63,609 nt of DNA from a virus. Below the pieces are notes generated by a model that was given only the letters and a program-made list of their open reading frames with translations, was not told the origin of the DNA and made no database searches. The DNA lies in IMG/VR virus record IMGVR_UViG_3300042892_001063, positions 1 through 63,609 of that record, one strand, 5' to 3'. This document shows, one piece after another, positions 11,295 through 62,495 of the stretch. Position 1 is the first letter of the stretch. Every line of letters starts with the position of its first letter. Position numbers and translations under genes: made by a program.

Positions 11295-11966
11295 ATGGAA
11301 TTAAAACAATCGACATTCGAGAAATTGTCAGCTATCAATGTGAACGCAAAGGTAGAAAAGAAAAGCGGTCTAACTTATTTAAGTTGGAGTTATGCTTGGA
11401 GTGAAATAAAAAAGAATTGCCCTGATGCTTCTTATCAAATTAAGGGAGACCCTATTACTCAGAAGCCATACTTCTACGATGAGAATCTTGGGTATATGGT
11501 AATGACAGAGGTAACAGTCGAAGGTAAATCATTAGAGATGTGGCTACCTGTTATGGATGGAGCTAACAAAGCTATGAAAGCTACGCCATATAGCTACATT
11601 ACAAGATACGGAGAGAAGTCAGTAGAAGCCGCTACAATGTTTGACATCAACAAAACATTAATGAGATGCTTGGTTAAGAACCTTGCTATGTTTGGTATGG
11701 GTATTTATATCTATGCAGGAGAAGACTTGCCTGATACGCCAACTGAACCTACAGCTCCTGTTGCAGCAGCCAATCTAAAGAAAGAAGAAGCTACTGAATT
11801 ACCTCAACTTATTAAAGATACCGACAATTGGATTAATGTAGTTAAATACGTTACAGCTAATAAAGAGTTAGGTATGGAGAAAATCGGAACGCAGTTAAAT
11901 CGTAAATACAAAATCAGTCCTGCTCTTAAGAAAGAAATAGCAATCATCATAAAAACAACAGCATAA
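11295..11966 (+). CDS. Sak-type single-strand annealing protein (RAD52 superfamily)
   Basis: This 223-aa protein matches the Sak/DUF1071 family: LTYLSWSYAWSEIKK (about 26-40), MWLPVMDGANKAMK (about 82-95) and INKTLMRCLVKNLAMFGMG (about 116-134), then a flexible tail. The family anneals complementary single strands in phage recombination. The adjacent gene is a PDDEXK exonuclease, the usual partner. Start context is TCAAATCAAATCAAATGG. Length is normal for the family. Confidence 0.85.
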   Translation: MELKQSTFEKLSAINVNAKVEKKSGLTYLSWSYAWSEIKKNCPDASYQIKGDPITQKPYFYDENLGYMVMTEVTVEGKSLEMWLPVMDGANKAMKATPYSYITRYGEKSVEAATMFDINKTLMRCLVKNLAMFGMGIYIYAGEDLPDTPTEPTAPVAAANLKKEEATELPQLIKDTDNWINVVKYVTANKELGMEKIGTQLNRKYKISPALKKEIAIIIKTTA

Positions 11967-12712
11967 TGGCAGTAGTAAACGAACAGATACTTGATTTATT
12001 AAGAAACGATACTGAGTATTACTCAGGTATCGGAAAGAATTATTTATCCAACTCAGACATCGGAACATTATTAGAGAACCCGAAAGAGTTCGGTAAACCA
12101 CGTGAAGATAATAAAGCGTTTGCTGAAGGCAGATACTTTCATCAATCTATCTTAGAACCTGAGAAGATTAAAGATGTATTGTTTGTTGATGTAAGTACTC
12201 GAACTACTAAGGAATACAAAGAGTTCTGCATAGCTAACAAATTACCGTTCTGTTTGCTTAAAAAGGAAATAGATGAAGTCAAGGGTCTTGTAAAGATTAT
12301 CAACGGTAATATCGCATTTTTTGAGGAGATATATAAAGACGGTAATCAGTTTGAGGTTCCTGCTGTTGGAGAGATTCAAGGTATGATGTGGAAAGGCAAA
12401 GCAGACATCGTGACTAACGAATGTGTGATTGACTTGAAGACCACGAGTGATATACAAAAGTTCAAGTGGAACGCTAAGAAATATAATTACGATTCACAGT
12501 GCTACATATACCAAAAACTATTCGGTAAGCCTTTAGTATTCTACGTTATTGACAAAGTAACAGGTATCCTTGCGGTATTTAAACCAACTGAGGAATTTGT
12601 AAAAGGCGGCGAGGAAAAAGTAGCACGAGCTATTGATATGTATCAGAGATACTTCTCAGCCAATCCTTCAGACGACATTGACAATTATTACATTGATGAA
12701 TTTTTATATTAA
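11966..12712 (+). CDS. PDDEXK exonuclease, RecB/YqaJ-like
   Basis: This 248-aa protein has the nuclease core KGKADIV (about 144-150) followed by VIDLKTT (about 153-159), the D and D-x-K residues of PDDEXK enzymes, then YDSQCYIYQKLF as the distal Gln/Tyr motif. It is similar to the phage DUF3799-type exonucleases. It would resect double-strand ends to single strands for the annealing protein just upstream, whose last base it shares. Confidence 0.8.
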   Translation: MAVVNEQILDLLRNDTEYYSGIGKNYLSNSDIGTLLENPKEFGKPREDNKAFAEGRYFHQSILEPEKIKDVLFVDVSTRTTKEYKEFCIANKLPFCLLKKEIDEVKGLVKIINGNIAFFEEIYKDGNQFEVPAVGEIQGMMWKGKADIVTNECVIDLKTTSDIQKFKWNAKKYNYDSQCYIYQKLFGKPLVFYVIDKVTGILAVFKPTEEFVKGGEEKVARAIDMYQRYFSANPSDDIDNYYIDEFLY

Positions 12713-12717
12713 GAGAT

Positions 12718-12894
12718 ATGAAATATTTAATCAGCGTAGTACTTACGTTTCTATCAGTATTAGCCTTTATGAAACTATTATTCTTGTTAAATAAAGGCAA
12801 TACTATTGCGAATATTTTCGCTATAATCGGAATATTCCTATTGGGATATTTAATAATCAAAACAAAATTATTCACTCAAATTAAATCAAAATGA
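12718..12894 (+). CDS. Small two-helix membrane protein
   Basis: This 58-aa protein has two hydrophobic segments (YLISVVLTFLSVLAF and IFAIIGIFLLGYLII) joined by a short basic turn. It overlaps the SPFH gene as ATGA, so the two are made together; it could be a membrane partner of that lipoprotein. Function is unknown. Confidence 0.65.
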   Translation: MKYLISVVLTFLSVLAFMKLLFLLNKGNTIANIFAIIGIFLLGYLIIKTKLFTQIKSK

Positions 12895-13733
12895 AAAAAT
12901 TAGCATTAGCATTTTTAGTAGCAATTTCAGTAGCATCTTGCACAACAGCCGACTCATCAGAAGTGGCATTAGTAGTTGACCAAATCGGTAACGACAAAGG
13001 AGTTCCAAATATTCAAATGGAATCAGGATTCATATTCTATTTCCCGCCAACACAGGATGTATTTATGTATCCAACATCAGTTCAGCATAAAGTTTGGACC
13101 GCAGACAATCAAGAGGGTTCAGAAACAGATGAACATATTGACGTAACCTCATCAGATGGGGCTACATTCGGACTTGATGTATCTGTAAACTTACAACTTC
13201 AAAGAGCAAGGGCGTCAGAGTTGTTTATCAAGTATAGAGTTGATATGAATGATTTAATAGATACAAGAGTAAGAACTATTGTTAGAAAAGAACTTTTAGA
13301 TAACGCTGTTAATTTCGCATCAGATAGTTTGTTACAACATAGAAACGTGTACGAAGCAAACGTAACAAAGACATTAGCTTTATCATTAGAGAAAGAAGGT
13401 TTTACACTTAATAATATTGCAATTTTAAAGATGGCATTACCATCATCATACAAGAAAGCTATTGAAAGAAAGATTGCCGTGTTGCAAGAAACAGCAACAA
13501 TCATCTCTCAAACTAAACAGGCAGAGCAGACAGCATTGAAGAAAGTAGCATTAGCTAAAGGTAACTACGAGGCAGCACAATACGATGCCAAAACAAAAGA
13601 AATCTTATCACAACCTAAATTACTTGAGTTATACAGAGCAGAGACAGAAAGAGTATGGGCAAATAAAGGTAAGTCTCCTTATGGTTCTAATAATGTATTT
13701 GGAACAGCATCAGGTATTCTTTTAAATAAATAG
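12891..13733 (+). CDS. SPFH/band 7-like lipoprotein
   Basis: This 280-aa protein begins with a lipoprotein signal (MKKLALAFLVAISVASC, cleavage before Cys17). The middle (about 30-200) follows the SPFH/prohibitin pattern: beta strands, then a helix with VRTIVRKELLDNAV and ALPSSYKKAIERKIAV, then an Ala/Lys/Gln-rich coiled coil. Such proteins form membrane-associated rings. The lipid anchor would hold it in the cell envelope, facing the periplasm. A role in superinfection exclusion or membrane stabilisation is inference; it sits inside the recombination-replication operon, which is odd. Confidence 0.75.
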   Translation: MKKLALAFLVAISVASCTTADSSEVALVVDQIGNDKGVPNIQMESGFIFYFPPTQDVFMYPTSVQHKVWTADNQEGSETDEHIDVTSSDGATFGLDVSVNLQLQRARASELFIKYRVDMNDLIDTRVRTIVRKELLDNAVNFASDSLLQHRNVYEANVTKTLALSLEKEGFTLNNIAILKMALPSSYKKAIERKIAVLQETATIISQTKQAEQTALKKVALAKGNYEAAQYDAKTKEILSQPKLLELYRAETERVWANKGKSPYGSNNVFGTASGILLNK

Positions 13734-13735
13734 AT

Positions 13736-13846
13736 ATGTGGGATTTATTTTATAATTGGATAGCTCCAATCGGAATTACAGTTATGTTTCTTTTTATGAT
13801 AATTATGCTTATAGCTATCGTAAGAGATATGTATAATAATTATTAA
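13736..13846 (+). CDS. Tiny membrane protein
   Basis: This 36-aa protein has one hydrophobic segment (PIGITVMFLFMIIMLIAIV). It starts two bases after the SPFH gene. It may be a further component of a membrane cluster (12718-13846); no function is known. Confidence 0.55.
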   Translation: MWDLFYNWIAPIGITVMFLFMIIMLIAIVRDMYNNY

Positions 13847-13852
13847 CAATAC

Positions 13853-13906
13853 ACCAAGCATAGCTTTAATCTCAGGGAGTTATGCTTGGTTCAAATAGAC
13901 TGAGAT
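13853..13906 (+). promoter_or_regulatory. H-type RNA pseudoknot before SSB-like gene
   Basis: Stem 1 is ACCAAGCATA (13853-13862) with TATGCTTGGT (13881-13890), 10 perfect pairs. Its loop holds ATCTCAG (13869-13875), which pairs fully with CTGAGAT (13900-13906) downstream. Loop 1 is 6 nt, the inter-stem segment 5 nt and the last loop 9 nt. The start codon follows 20 bases later. T4 gene 32, also a single-strand DNA-binding protein gene, is known to be autoregulated through a leader pseudoknot; the parallel is inference. Confidence 0.7.
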
Positions 13907-13926
13907 AAACTAAATAAATTATTACA

Positions 13927-14244
13927 ATGGCACAAGACCAAGAAAAGATTTTTGCAGATGGATTCATCTTCAAAAGAAACGAGAAAGCACCTGACTTCGT
14001 AGTGGGTAGATTATCAATTAAAGTAGAAGATGCAATTGCATTTATGAAGAAACACGAGAAAAGCGGATGGGTAAACCTAAACGTAAAGACTGCTCGTAGT
14101 GGGAATTACTATATGGACTTGGATACTTTTCAAGCTAATGATAGTTCTCCTAAAGAAAGTGCTGTCGATAATTACAACAAAAAGGCAGAAACTAAACAAC
14201 AACCAACTATTCAAGAGGAGGAAGAAGAAGACCTCCCGTTTTAG
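13927..14244 (+). CDS. SSB-like single-stranded DNA-binding protein
   Basis: This 105-aa protein has a compact N-terminal region of strands (EKIFADGFIFKRNEKAPDF, then KSGWVNLNVKTARSGNYYMDL) compatible with an OB-type fold. It also has a flexible Gln/Lys linker and the acidic tip EEEEEDLPF (about 97-105), the hallmark by which SSB proteins recruit partners. It precedes the primase-helicase gene and follows the annealing and exonuclease genes. The upstream pseudoknot suggests translational autoregulation. A terminator follows. Confidence 0.75.
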   Translation: MAQDQEKIFADGFIFKRNEKAPDFVVGRLSIKVEDAIAFMKKHEKSGWVNLNVKTARSGNYYMDLDTFQANDSSPKESAVDNYNKKAETKQQPTIQEEEEEDLPF

Positions 14245-14269: not shown

Positions 14270-14299
14270 AAAGAGGAATGTAACAGTTCCTCTTTTTTT
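14270..14299 (+). terminator. Intrinsic terminator after SSB-like gene
   Basis: AAGAGGAA (14271-14278) pairs fully with TTCCTCTT (14287-14294) around an 8-base loop and runs into a T tract to 14299. This is a classic rho-independent terminator, ending the recombination operon. Confidence 0.85.
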
Positions 14300-14471: not shown

Positions 14472-16901
14472 ATGACGCACACAGTAACAATCTTCCAAAA
14501 CATACGAGATACGGACACTCCGTTCTTCAGGGATGTTAATATAATACTTGAGAGAATCAAAGATGGTACAGGTGCTACCAAAGACATTGTCAAACGCATC
14601 AGACAAGAAAAAAATAAATCAGAACGTAATGAGATTAAGAAATTACTACCCGCTATTTGTTTCAGCGGTACGTTTAATAAAAGATTAGATAACGCATTGG
14701 ACCAACACTCAGGACTTGTATGTTTGGATTTTGATGGGTATTCAAAACAAAAAGAGTTATTGCAAGACAAAGAGACTATATCGAAAAACAAATATGTATT
14801 TTCAGTATTCATATCTCCTTCAGGTAATGGTTTAAAAGTATTGGTTAAGATTCCTGCTGATGCAGACAATCATACAAACTACTTCAATAGCTTAGAAAAG
14901 CATTTTAATAGCCCTTATTTCGACAAAACAAGTAAAAACCTTAGTCGAGTATGCTACGAGTCTTATGACCCTTTAATTCACGTTAATGAGAACTCTTCTG
15001 TTTGGGATATAATTGAAGAACCTGAATACGTTGAAGTAAATAGAGTTAGAGACCAAGCAACTATACCAATCTCAGATGAGAATAAAATTGTTGAGATACT
15101 TGTTAAGTGGTGGGAGAAGAAATATCCTATGCAAGAAGGTCAGCGTAATCACAATGCGTATATACTTGCTATGGCTTTCAATGATTTTGGTGTTAACAAA
15201 AGTCTTGCAGCTTATATCTTAAATCAATTTGCTACTGCTGACTTCTCAATTTCAGAGATAGCTATTACAATTGATTCAGCTTATAAGCATACTGCTAACT
15301 TCGGCACTAAGTATTATGAAGATGAGGAGCGTATCAATCAGATACGTGCAAAGCTAAGACGAGGTGTATCAAAAAAGGAAATTCGCTACCAACTGCAAGA
15401 CTCCAATTTGGATAGCGATACTATCGATGCTGTGCTAAATAAAGTTGAGGATGAAAATTCTAAAATGACATTTTGGACAAAGAACGATAAAGGAGTTATA
15501 AAAATAGAGCACATACTGTTCAAGCAATTCCTTGAGGACTCAGGCTTCTATAAGTTCTGTCCTGAAGGTAGTAGGAATTATGTATTTGTAAAGGTTACTA
15601 ACAATCTTATTGACCATACATCAGAGAAAGAGATTAAGGATTTTGTTCTTACACATTTGTTAGAGTTAGATGATTACAGTATATACAATTACTTCGCAGA
15701 CAATACGAGATACTTCAAGGATGATTTTTTATCAATGCTATCAACGATTGACATATACTTTATCGCAGATAAGAAAGACTCAGCGTACTTGTATTATAAA
15801 AACTGTGCTGTAAAGATTACTAAAGATGGTATCTTGATTATTGACTACTTAGACTTAGGTGGATATGTATGGAAAGACCACGTGATTGATAGGAACTTTA
15901 GTCTTTGTCCTGTTACAGGTAAATGTGATTTCAAACAGTTTATATCGAACATAAATGGCAACGATGAGAACAGGATAAAAACAATGGAGAGTACGATAGG
16001 ATTTCTTCAACACGGATACAAGAACTTATCTTTCTGTCCTGCTGTAATTCTAAACGATGAGGTTATTAGCGACAATCCTGAAGGAGGAACAGGAAAGGGA
16101 TTAGTTATGAACGCCCTTAGTAATATGAAGAAGCTCGTAGTAATTGACGGTAAGTCATTTAATTTTGAGAAGTCATTCCCTTATCAGTTGGTATCGGCAG
16201 ATACGCAGATACTTTGCTTTGATGATGTCAAGAAACATTTTGATTTCGAGAGACTGTTCAGTGTGATTACTGAGGGGTTGACATTAGAGAAGAAGAATAA
16301 AGACGCTATCAAGATACCATTCAACAAATCTCCAAAAGTTGCAATAACAACTAACTACGCAATCAAAGGTGCAGGGAACTCATTTGCGAGACGAAAATGG
16401 GAATTAGAACTACATCAGTATTACACATTAGATTTCACGCCAAGAGACGATTTTGGAAAGATGATGTTTGGAGATTGGAATGATGATGATTGGTGTGAGT
16501 TTGACAATTATATGATTGGGTGCTTGAGCTATTATCTTACTTACGGATTAGTTAAGTCTAAGTTTGTGAACTTAAAGATTAGACAGTTATCAGCAGAGAC
16601 TTGCCACGAGTTTATCGAGTGGGTTGGGTTGGTAGATAACAACGACAAAAGTACTGCGCTTCCTACAAATGTTAGACTATATAAGAACGAGTTGTACCAT
16701 ACGTTTGTCGATGAGTATCCTGACTACGGTTCAAGAGGTAAGATGACAATTAGTAGGACAAAGTTCTACAAATGGCTGATAGCTTATGCTATATACAAAG
16801 AAGGACTAATGCCTGAAGAGGACCGAGACCACTTGGGTAGATGGATAATTATTAAGAAGAGAGCAGATAACGAAACACAAATTCAATTAAATAAAGAATG
16901 A
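14472..16901 (+). CDS. Primase-helicase (VirE-N/BT4734-like plus SF3 helicase)
   Basis: This 809-aa protein has, at about residues 50-170, the VirE N-terminal/BT4734-like domain (GLVCLDFDGY, then VFISPSGNGLKVLVKI), a primase-like region. A PriCT-like helical segment follows at about 215-300. Residues 530-660 hold an SF3 helicase: GGTGKG Walker A (about 538-543), ILCFDDV Walker B (about 578-584), PKVAITTNY sensor (about 617-625) and Arg pair RRKW. The protein would unwind and prime at the origin; no DNA polymerase is encoded, so host Pol III would extend. Iteron units lie just upstream. Confidence 0.85.
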   Translation: MTHTVTIFQNIRDTDTPFFRDVNIILERIKDGTGATKDIVKRIRQEKNKSERNEIKKLLPAICFSGTFNKRLDNALDQHSGLVCLDFDGYSKQKELLQDKETISKNKYVFSVFISPSGNGLKVLVKIPADADNHTNYFNSLEKHFNSPYFDKTSKNLSRVCYESYDPLIHVNENSSVWDIIEEPEYVEVNRVRDQATIPISDENKIVEILVKWWEKKYPMQEGQRNHNAYILAMAFNDFGVNKSLAAYILNQFATADFSISEIAITIDSAYKHTANFGTKYYEDEERINQIRAKLRRGVSKKEIRYQLQDSNLDSDTIDAVLNKVEDENSKMTFWTKNDKGVIKIEHILFKQFLEDSGFYKFCPEGSRNYVFVKVTNNLIDHTSEKEIKDFVLTHLLELDDYSIYNYFADNTRYFKDDFLSMLSTIDIYFIADKKDSAYLYYKNCAVKITKDGILIIDYLDLGGYVWKDHVIDRNFSLCPVTGKCDFKQFISNINGNDENRIKTMESTIGFLQHGYKNLSFCPAVILNDEVISDNPEGGTGKGLVMNALSNMKKLVVIDGKSFNFEKSFPYQLVSADTQILCFDDVKKHFDFERLFSVITEGLTLEKKNKDAIKIPFNKSPKVAITTNYAIKGAGNSFARRKWELELHQYYTLDFTPRDDFGKMMFGDWNDDDWCEFDNYMIGCLSYYLTYGLVKSKFVNLKIRQLSAETCHEFIEWVGLVDNNDKSTALPTNVRLYKNELYHTFVDEYPDYGSRGKMTISRTKFYKWLIAYAIYKEGLMPEEDRDHLGRWIIIKKRADNETQIQLNKE

Positions 16902-60708: not shown

Positions 60709-60898
60709 CTTTCCAATTTAGCCAAAATCCAATAGCAACAATAATGTTCATTCCCATAGATGCTACTATCTCATAAAAATCCTCGTAGATATTTACTGTT
60801 AGGTGTACGTGTCCTACCATCCAAAATGGTATTGATAGGTTACACGCCACCCATATTACAGTAAATCGTATGAACTCCTTAGTCCTGAGCTTGCTCAT
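60677..60898 (-). CDS. Small two-helix membrane protein
   Basis: This 73-aa protein, read from 60898, has two membrane segments (FTVIWVACNLSIPFWMVG and MGMNIIVAIGFWLNW). It overlaps the groEL end by 20 bases and the next gene by 32. It could be a second holin or a membrane partner of the chaperonin genes; this is open. Confidence 0.6.
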   Translation of the reverse strand: MSKLRTKEFIRFTVIWVACNLSIPFWMVGHVHLTVNIYEDFYEIVASMGMNIIVAIGFWLNWKDESKNYDKRD

Positions 60899-62495
60899 AA
60901 GTACGTGCCAACGTAATTGTAGCATCAGTGCTTAGGATTGTTACAGCTACACTCACTGCATTTTGTAGTGCAGAACGTGTTACTTTAAGTGGGTCAATTA
61001 CTCCCATCTTAATCAAGTCTCCAAACTCTTTTGTTTTTAAATTGTAACCTTGACCCTCAGCGATACCATCTTTATAAATATCCTCTGCTTTTAGTCCTGC
61101 ATTTGCAAGTATCTGTAAGAACGGCGCCATAAGTGCTACCTTTAAAATTGCAATTGCTGCACTATACTCAGCACTTTTATTTACATCTGTAAACAAAGCA
61201 GCTGACTCCTCAAGTAATGCTTTACCTGCTCCGGGAAGAATCCCTTCCTCAAGCGCAGACCTTACTGCACAAACAGCATCATCAACCCTGTCATACAACT
61301 CTTTTTGCTCCAAGTCAGTTTGACCTCCTACGAATATCACACCAATTCCACCTGTAAGCGAAGCAATTCTCTCTAACAAGAAATCCTTCTCTGCTTTCTT
61401 AGTTGCCATCTTGTGTGAGTCCCATAATTGAGACACTCTCTCGTCAATAACTTTTTGGTCTAATTTCAATCCTGACTTGATGATAACAGTCTTGTCTTTG
61501 CTAACAATTATTTTAGCTGCATGACCTAAGTCCCCGTAGTTTATAATACTCAAATCATCTCCTGTTTTCTCACTGAAGTATGTCGCGCCAACACTAATTG
61601 CTATGTCGTGCATTAGCTCGTGTTGCTTGTACCCGAATGCCGGCGGCGCAACGACGCATATCTTCGCGTTCCCTTTTACTACATTTGCAGCAAAAGTATT
61701 TATCACGTTCGTGTTACACGGAGAAATGATTAGAAGTTTTTTACCCTCTGTGATAATTGGTTTCAATACGTTCTCAATCTGAAGGATATTACTAATCTCC
61801 ATATCAGCAACTAATACCATCACATCCTCGAACACACACTCGTCTTTCTTTTGGTCATTGATGAACATCGGACTTAAGTACCCTCTGTCAAATTTCAATC
61901 CCAATGTGGTCTCAGCGTAAGTCTCATCGTTCTGACTTTTCTCAACTGTAACAATTCCTGTTTTACCAACGTCTTTGTAAACCTCAGAGATAATCTTACC
62001 AATCTCTTTGTCATTGTTTGCAGATATAGTAGCTACATCAACTAACATTGTACTCGTAACTCTCTTGCTACGTTTTCTCAACTTATCCACCACCTTGTCG
62101 CTAATGTCCACTATGCTTCTCAAAACCTCTGTCCGGTTCATCTCAGGAGTTATAAACTCAAGTCCGCCAAGTACTAATCCTTCAGTCAAAACAATCGCTG
62201 TAGTTGTACCGTCTCCTGCTGATGAAGCTGTTTTGTCTGCCGCTTCTTTCATCATCTTAACCGCAAGGTTCTCAGATGGGTCAAATAGGTCAATAGCTTT
62301 AGCAACAGTTACCCCATCTTTGGTTACAGTAATTCCGTGCGTGTGGTTCGGACTCTCAATTAGCACTGTATTCCCTCCGGGACCCAACGTACTCTTCACA
62401 GCCTTTGACATTTTCACTACGCCACTGACTAATTTTTTCCTTCCTTGCTCTCCAAAGAACAAATCTTTAGGGGAATAACCTTGATTTTCTAACAT
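60879..62495 (-). CDS. groEL: GroEL chaperonin
   Basis: This 538-aa protein is a full-length group I chaperonin: STLGPGGNTVLIE (about 36-47), KDGVTVAK (59-66), GDGTTTA (94-100) and the DDAVCAVRSALEEG region holding the late Asp. It folds proteins with ATP and GroES. The usual GGM tail is missing; it ends TYEQAQD. Start context is TCAAATCAAATG with a TATATTTG box 27 bases upstream. Folding of capsid or tail proteins is the likely task. Confidence 0.9.
   Translation of the reverse strand: MLENQGYSPKDLFFGEQGRKKLVSGVVKMSKAVKSTLGPGGNTVLIESPNHTHGITVTKDGVTVAKAIDLFDPSENLAVKMMKEAADKTASSAGDGTTTAIVLTEGLVLGGLEFITPEMNRTEVLRSIVDISDKVVDKLRKRSKRVTSTMLVDVATISANNDKEIGKIISEVYKDVGKTGIVTVEKSQNDETYAETTLGLKFDRGYLSPMFINDQKKDECVFEDVMVLVADMEISNILQIENVLKPIITEGKKLLIISPCNTNVINTFAANVVKGNAKICVVAPPAFGYKQHELMHDIAISVGATYFSEKTGDDLSIINYGDLGHAAKIIVSKDKTVIIKSGLKLDQKVIDERVSQLWDSHKMATKKAEKDFLLERIASLTGGIGVIFVGGQTDLEQKELYDRVDDAVCAVRSALEEGILPGAGKALLEESAALFTDVNKSAEYSAAIAILKVALMAPFLQILANAGLKAEDIYKDGIAEGQGYNLKTKEFGDLIKMGVIDPLKVTRSALQNAVSVAVTILSTDATITLARTYEQAQD

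Follow-up and report, generated by a model that had tools for sequence, protein, structure and literature searches.

Does a phage unrelated to T4 control the synthesis of a single-stranded-DNA-binding protein (SSB) through a pseudoknot in the leader of its mRNA? The question is raised by a viral DNA of 63,609 nt (the whole stretch analysed, here called the window), in which an earlier note, made from the letters alone, had placed an H-type pseudoknot in front of an SSB-like gene and supposed convergent autoregulation in a Bacteroidetes phage. For gene 32 of T4 and RB69, translational self-repression via a leader pseudoknot is established; in T4 the pseudoknot nucleates binding of gp32, which extends from there across UUAAA/UAAA repeats as well as the ribosome binding site (PMC535899, PMC3014915). 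A 2010 review regarded T4-type gene 32 as possibly the sole viral pseudoknot serving translational autoregulation (PMC3014915), and no later viral case was found in the open-licence literature.

The H-type pseudoknot lies at 13853-13906 of the plus strand, upstream of the SSB-like gene, exactly where it had been described: ten and seven perfect pairs interlock, and the ATG at 13927 follows 20 nt past the end of stem 2 (Table 1). The ten pairs, ACCAAGCAUA (13853-13862) with UAUGCUUGGU (13881-13890), are all Watson-Crick; the full stem 1 is longer than had been noted, as the RNAfold structure (minimum free energy -21.9 kcal/mol, z -2.5) comprises 15 pairs, the upper five of which (13863-13867 with 13876-13880) include G-U. 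The loop closed by this stem consists of the eight bases AAUCUCAG, and within it 13869-13875 form seven pairs with 13900-13906. From 5' to 3' the RNA thus runs through the first arm of stem 1, a lone A, the first arm of stem 2, the second arm of stem 1, a nine-nt loop and the second arm of stem 2. Between the pseudoknot and the AUG of the window the mean unpaired probability is 0.80. In a pseudoknot scan requiring stem 2 and a stem 1, the window's leader outscored all 1000 dinucleotide shuffles, and in a second scan it reached 48.4, as against a maximum of 36.8 among 396 shuffles of homologous leaders; a chance origin is untenable because related phages show covariation.

Table 1. The leader pseudoknot and the genes around it (positions in the window)
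Feature	Position	Strand	Basis or remark
Sak-type single-strand annealing protein	11295..11966	+	SSAP_Sak, E 4.2e-49
PD-(D/E)XK exonuclease	11966..12712	+	DUF3799, E 1.4e-21; phrog_412 exonuclease VIII
SPFH/Band 7 lipoprotein gene	12891..13733	+	Band_7, E 2.3e-17; phrog_200, E 6.8e-40
36-aa membrane-type small ORF	13736..13846	+	ends 6 nt before stem 1; sequence
Stem 1, 5' arm	13853..13867	+	15 nt; sequence, RNAfold, covariation in 14/15 pairs
Loop 1, single A	13868..13868	+	position 16 of the window's copy; invariant across the alignment of copies
Stem 2, 5' arm AUCUCAG	13869..13875	+	all 7 pairs covary; pairing complete out of sample
Stem 1, 3' arm	13876..13890	+	abuts the 5' arm of stem 2, no loop 2; sequence, RNAfold, covariation
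Loop 3 UCAAAUAGA	13891..13899	+	9 nt; sequence
Stem 2, 3' arm CUGAGAU	13900..13906	+	sequence, covariation
A/U-rich, largely unpaired stretch before the start codon	13907..13926	+	20 nt
SSB-like protein, 105 aa	13927..14244	+	sequence, homologues, core structure prediction
Acidic C-terminal tip EEEEEDLPF, codons	14215..14241	+	sequence; tip kept in 96/101 long relatives
Primase/helicase-like protein, BT4734-like N-terminal domain	14472..16901	+	sequence searches

Homologues of the 105-aa protein were gathered from viral contigs and their leaders compared; dozens of contigs from related phages have the same element ahead of this gene. Among 39 distinct leaders in an unfitted MAFFT alignment, 92.4% of the pair cells hold standard pairs, as against 26-50% after sliding the partners by 1-3 columns, and 19 of the 22 pairs show changes on both sides. 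With 66 distinct copies, all seven pairs of stem 2 and 14 of the 15 pairs of stem 1 covary (21/22); variants of stem 2 such as GCCUCAG/CUGAGGC, GUCCCAA/UUGGGAC, GGUAUGG/CCAUACC, GGCGUAG/CUACGCC and GCCCUAA/UUAGGGC, among others, retain the pairing. The arms of stem 2 are 24 nt apart in 43 of 64 copies, loop 3 ends in AAAUAGA or AAACAGA in 54 of 64, and the distance from stem 2 to the ATG is 17-24 nt in the relatives, 20 being commonest. One U-G pair of stem 1 is kept in 66/66 copies, and many further G-U pairs occur, which indicates that the element acts as plus-strand RNA, that is, in the mRNA strand.

The set of 66 was picked in part for pairing in stem 2, which carries a risk of circularity; for this reason a covariance model of stem 1 only (R1) was built and run on contigs outside its building set. 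It returned 15 full-length matches, 14 strong and one marginal (E 0.026), of which 14 hold a complete stem 2 at the model positions, while in the fifteenth, L213, stem 2 is complete after a shift of one base (GCCUCGG/CCGAGGC, read by eye). Stem 2 of L041 is likewise complete with a one-base shift (GCCAUGG/CCAUGGC; by eye, confirmed by the second scan), and no case of a broken stem 2 was met among the out-of-sample copies. Compensatory change in both stems of homologous leaders, the check proposed beforehand, was thus strongly borne out by the 39- and 66-sequence sets and by the unused contigs; the pseudoknot in the leader of the SSB-like gene is genuine, and many related phages conserve it strictly.

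Across 34 genomes or records, R1 gave a strong match in each of the 24 that bear the element and none below E 0.05 in those that lack it. The element is present in a single copy in 23 of these 24, the exception being L121 with a second strong copy, and every copy examined precedes the SSB-like gene apart from this one orphan duplicate. The orphan (L121:1170-1226) is near-identical to the window's pseudoknot and lies after a Dam-type-methylase-like gene and before a 13-aa ORF and a tRNA-like sequence. A strict pattern of the element matched 33 viral stretches, 26 of them in contigs already known for the leader element, and the other seven all precede the same gene; in 84,980 bacterial and archaeal species genomes it had zero matches. 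Rfam yielded no family at the gathering threshold and nothing credible at permissive ones. In the protein tree the element bearers (69 of 108 proteins) all fall within an inner group, and the parsimony count is 8 changes; a single gain with several later losses is possible from this tree, many forks of which are unresolved. A broader scan found pseudoknots of the same topology with other loops in more divergent relatives (e.g. L253, L314, L316 and L379), and the class may, judging from these sequences, be broader or have originated repeatedly. In the leaders L054-L075, which precede tip-less 68-aa homologues in other phages, the place of the pseudoknot before the ATG is taken by a G+C-rich hairpin that has a T run, together with a Shine-Dalgarno-like sequence.

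Many copies begin 4-9 nt past an upstream stop codon or immediately adjoin a tRNA-like 3' end. A 16-bp palindrome, GTGTCTTYRAAGACAC, is found in 10-12 copies per genome in L004, L005, L013, L020, L028, L040, L050, L163 and L180 (genomes G001, G002, G005, G007, G010, G013, G014, G027 and G022, in the same order) and often lies directly 5' of their pseudoknot; the window and several other relatives do not contain it. In one phage contig a tmRNA gene (L047:1881-2243; Rfam, 97.7 bits) precedes the SSB-like gene by about 250 bp.

The protein encoded downstream has the acidic tip of SSB type that had been pointed out (EEEEEDLPF): of 101 long relatives, 96 carry [VILM]PF at the very C-terminus, and in 90 the last ten residues include three or more acidic ones. 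Sequence searches of Pfam, NCBIfam, PHROG and PDB gave no reliable family identification, and weak PHROG matches to SSBs were restricted to the C-terminal part including the tip. A poor full-length structure prediction (pLDDT 57) was replaced by one of the core (pLDDT 88), which has the order beta-beta-alpha-beta-beta; this core matched no PDB entry at E <= 0.001, its only matches being three unnamed viral models. The classical OB-fold SSB domain (PF00436) had no match in 22 genomes or records, window included, the protein itself having no Pfam match. The tip and the neighbouring genes thus agree with the identity that the earlier note had given to the protein, while an SSB family match and a known fold are absent; it is called SSB-like here because reliable family matches and matches to solved structures are both missing, and it is likely a single-stranded-DNA-binding protein.

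The Sak and exonuclease genes upstream are recombination genes, and the Sak gene occurs in 21 of the 22 genomes or records searched, window included. The primase/helicase-like protein is closest to proteins from phages of Flavobacterium and other Bacteroidota, which supports the earlier assignment to a Bacteroidetes phage. Between exonuclease and SSB-like gene, the window holds the Band 7 gene and the 36-aa ORF (12891-13846), the latter without a family match in Pfam or PHROG; relatives have tRNA-like genes, the palindrome or nothing in this gap, which has the look of a cargo site. At 14271-14299, a short way past the SSB-like gene, a hairpin (AAGAGGAA/UUCCUCUU) is followed by a T run, terminator-like by eye and not called by the scan; L121 has a similar hairpin and T run. 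A GroEL-like chaperonin gene is encoded on the minus strand at 60879-62495 (phrog_5725, E 2.6e-131).

With respect to function, transcription attenuation is rejected, there being no terminator-like structure between the element and the ATG, and so is frameshifting, the pseudoknot lying between ORFs and having stops in its loops. A promoter-like match at 13900-13928, overlapping the start codon, was no better than chance. Control after transcription is favoured because the element starts near an upstream stop codon or tRNA-like 3' end and no terminator-like site precedes the AUG; on the same grounds the controlled step would be translation or mRNA stability.

By analogy with T4 gp32, autogenous repression is proposed: the leader would be a translational operator through which the SSB-like protein represses itself, a reading to which we give slightly better than an even chance. 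Protein in excess over the available single-stranded DNA would bind the pseudoknot, recognising it through its shape together with the invariant A of loop 1 and the AAYAGA of loop 3; it would then spread onto the adjoining unpaired A/U-rich stretch and block ribosome binding, and its level would thereby track the demand in replication and recombination. What is observed is the conserved structure; that the protein binds it and represses translation we infer from T4. The operator reading is supported by the covariation in both stems, the out-of-sample stem 2 and the fixed distance to the AUG; by the tie of a nearly always single-copy element to one gene; by the SSB tip, the recombination neighbours and the lack of an OB-fold SSB elsewhere in the searched genomes; and by a layout that is that of the T4 gene 32 leader, where repression is established. 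It is weakened because the protein has no reliable SSB family match and a predicted fold unlike any solved structure; also counted against it are relatives of the same protein family without the element, and A/U-rich leaders in relatives without the pseudoknot as well (81% A+U, against an average of 85% between pseudoknot and start codon where the element is present).

Stem 1 starts 0-3 nt past a tRNA-like 3' end in many relatives, and maturation of the tRNA would leave the pseudoknot at the 5' end of the mRNA, where a rigid structure might stop nucleases once the RNA upstream of it, in many cases a tRNA, has been removed by cleavage, so that the SSB-like mRNA persists. As an element of mRNA stability or processing the pseudoknot is nevertheless unlikely, since other copies lie a few nt past a stop codon with no tRNA, and a plain hairpin would suffice, yet stem 2, loops and AUG distance are all conserved. 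The conserved unpaired nucleotides do suggest some binding partner, and the timing of SSB-like protein synthesis could then lie with an RNA-binding protein of the host, a ribosomal protein or a different phage protein; we consider this rather improbable, as the tie of an almost always single-copy element to the SSB-like gene is most simply explained by autogenous control.

A ribosome that ends translation of the upstream ORF could reach the 5' arm of stem 1 in the window and several relatives, and the pseudoknot might, with no regulator involved, passively insulate the start site from upstream translation or keep the initiation region open; copies preceded by a tRNA have, however, no ribosome directly upstream, and insulation needs no invariant loop nucleotides, which leaves this account little probability. 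Riboswitch and self-cleaving classes include compact H-type pseudoknots whose A-rich loops are conserved, and the loop AAAUAG recalls pistol ribozymes. That the element is a small-molecule riboswitch or a self-cleaving RNA is nonetheless very improbable, given the Rfam result and the region downstream, which holds no further helix, just the A/U-rich stretch; the single gene context also speaks against a metabolite class.

If the operator reading is borne out, pseudoknot-mediated SSB autoregulation would recur in a second phage case with an unrelated protein, many natural variants would be at hand for learning how an SSB recognises its own mRNA among other single strands, and a small protein family without known fold would be flagged as likely SSB. 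The wider proposal, to which we give a little less than an even chance, is that autogenous operators of phage SSBs evolved independently a second time, as a class in which a pseudoknot RNA family, comprising that of the window's phage family and of divergent relatives with different loops, lets a small SSB whose fold is unrecognised repress its own translation.

Among known systems, the STAXI motif, a candidate structured RNA, likewise forms a pseudoknot near SSB genes, but it comes in two or three tandem repeats, frequently has UUCG loops and is associated with various DNA-handling genes (PMC2864571). The element described here has one copy in the window and nearly all relatives, no UUCG and one gene; by its sequence it is a pseudoknot without an Rfam family and distinct from the tandem-repeated STAXI. 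In the autogenous ribosomal-protein operator of E. coli rpsO/S15, which belongs to a different gene class, the ribosome-binding arrangement is a different, overlapping one. This system resembles the present one in having a leader pseudoknot for translational self-repression and is named as a parallel in PMC3014915.

The gene 32 operator of T4, T2 and RB69 is, like the element here, an H-type pseudoknot before a phage SSB gene, the SSB function being presumptive in the present case. In the T4 record the leader reads UGCC-A-GCUAUGA-GGUA-AAGUG-UCAUAGC, followed by 39 A/U-rich nt to the AUG; this pairing is our own reading and agrees with the pseudoknot in PMC535899. Stem 1 has, on that reading, about 4 pairs in T4 and up to 15 here, the distance to the AUG is 39 nt as against 20, and a conserved AAYAGA in loop 3 is particular to the element here. 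The 105-aa protein with its beta-beta-alpha-beta-beta core has no Pfam or PHROG match to gp32, the phages here are related to those of Bacteroidota, and repression is proven for T4/RB69 only. For H-type pseudoknots in general, a one-nt loop 1 that crosses a seven-pair stem 2 is geometrically favourable, and the resemblance to T4 may for that reason be in part physical necessity. Of the shared logic that had been supposed, the layout holds: the parts come in one order in both leaders, loop 1 is a single A, stem 2 has seven pairs, loop 2 is absent, and the RNA up to the AUG is unstructured, A/U-rich and contains UAAA-like units. It is by analogy with this operator that autoregulation is suggested here.
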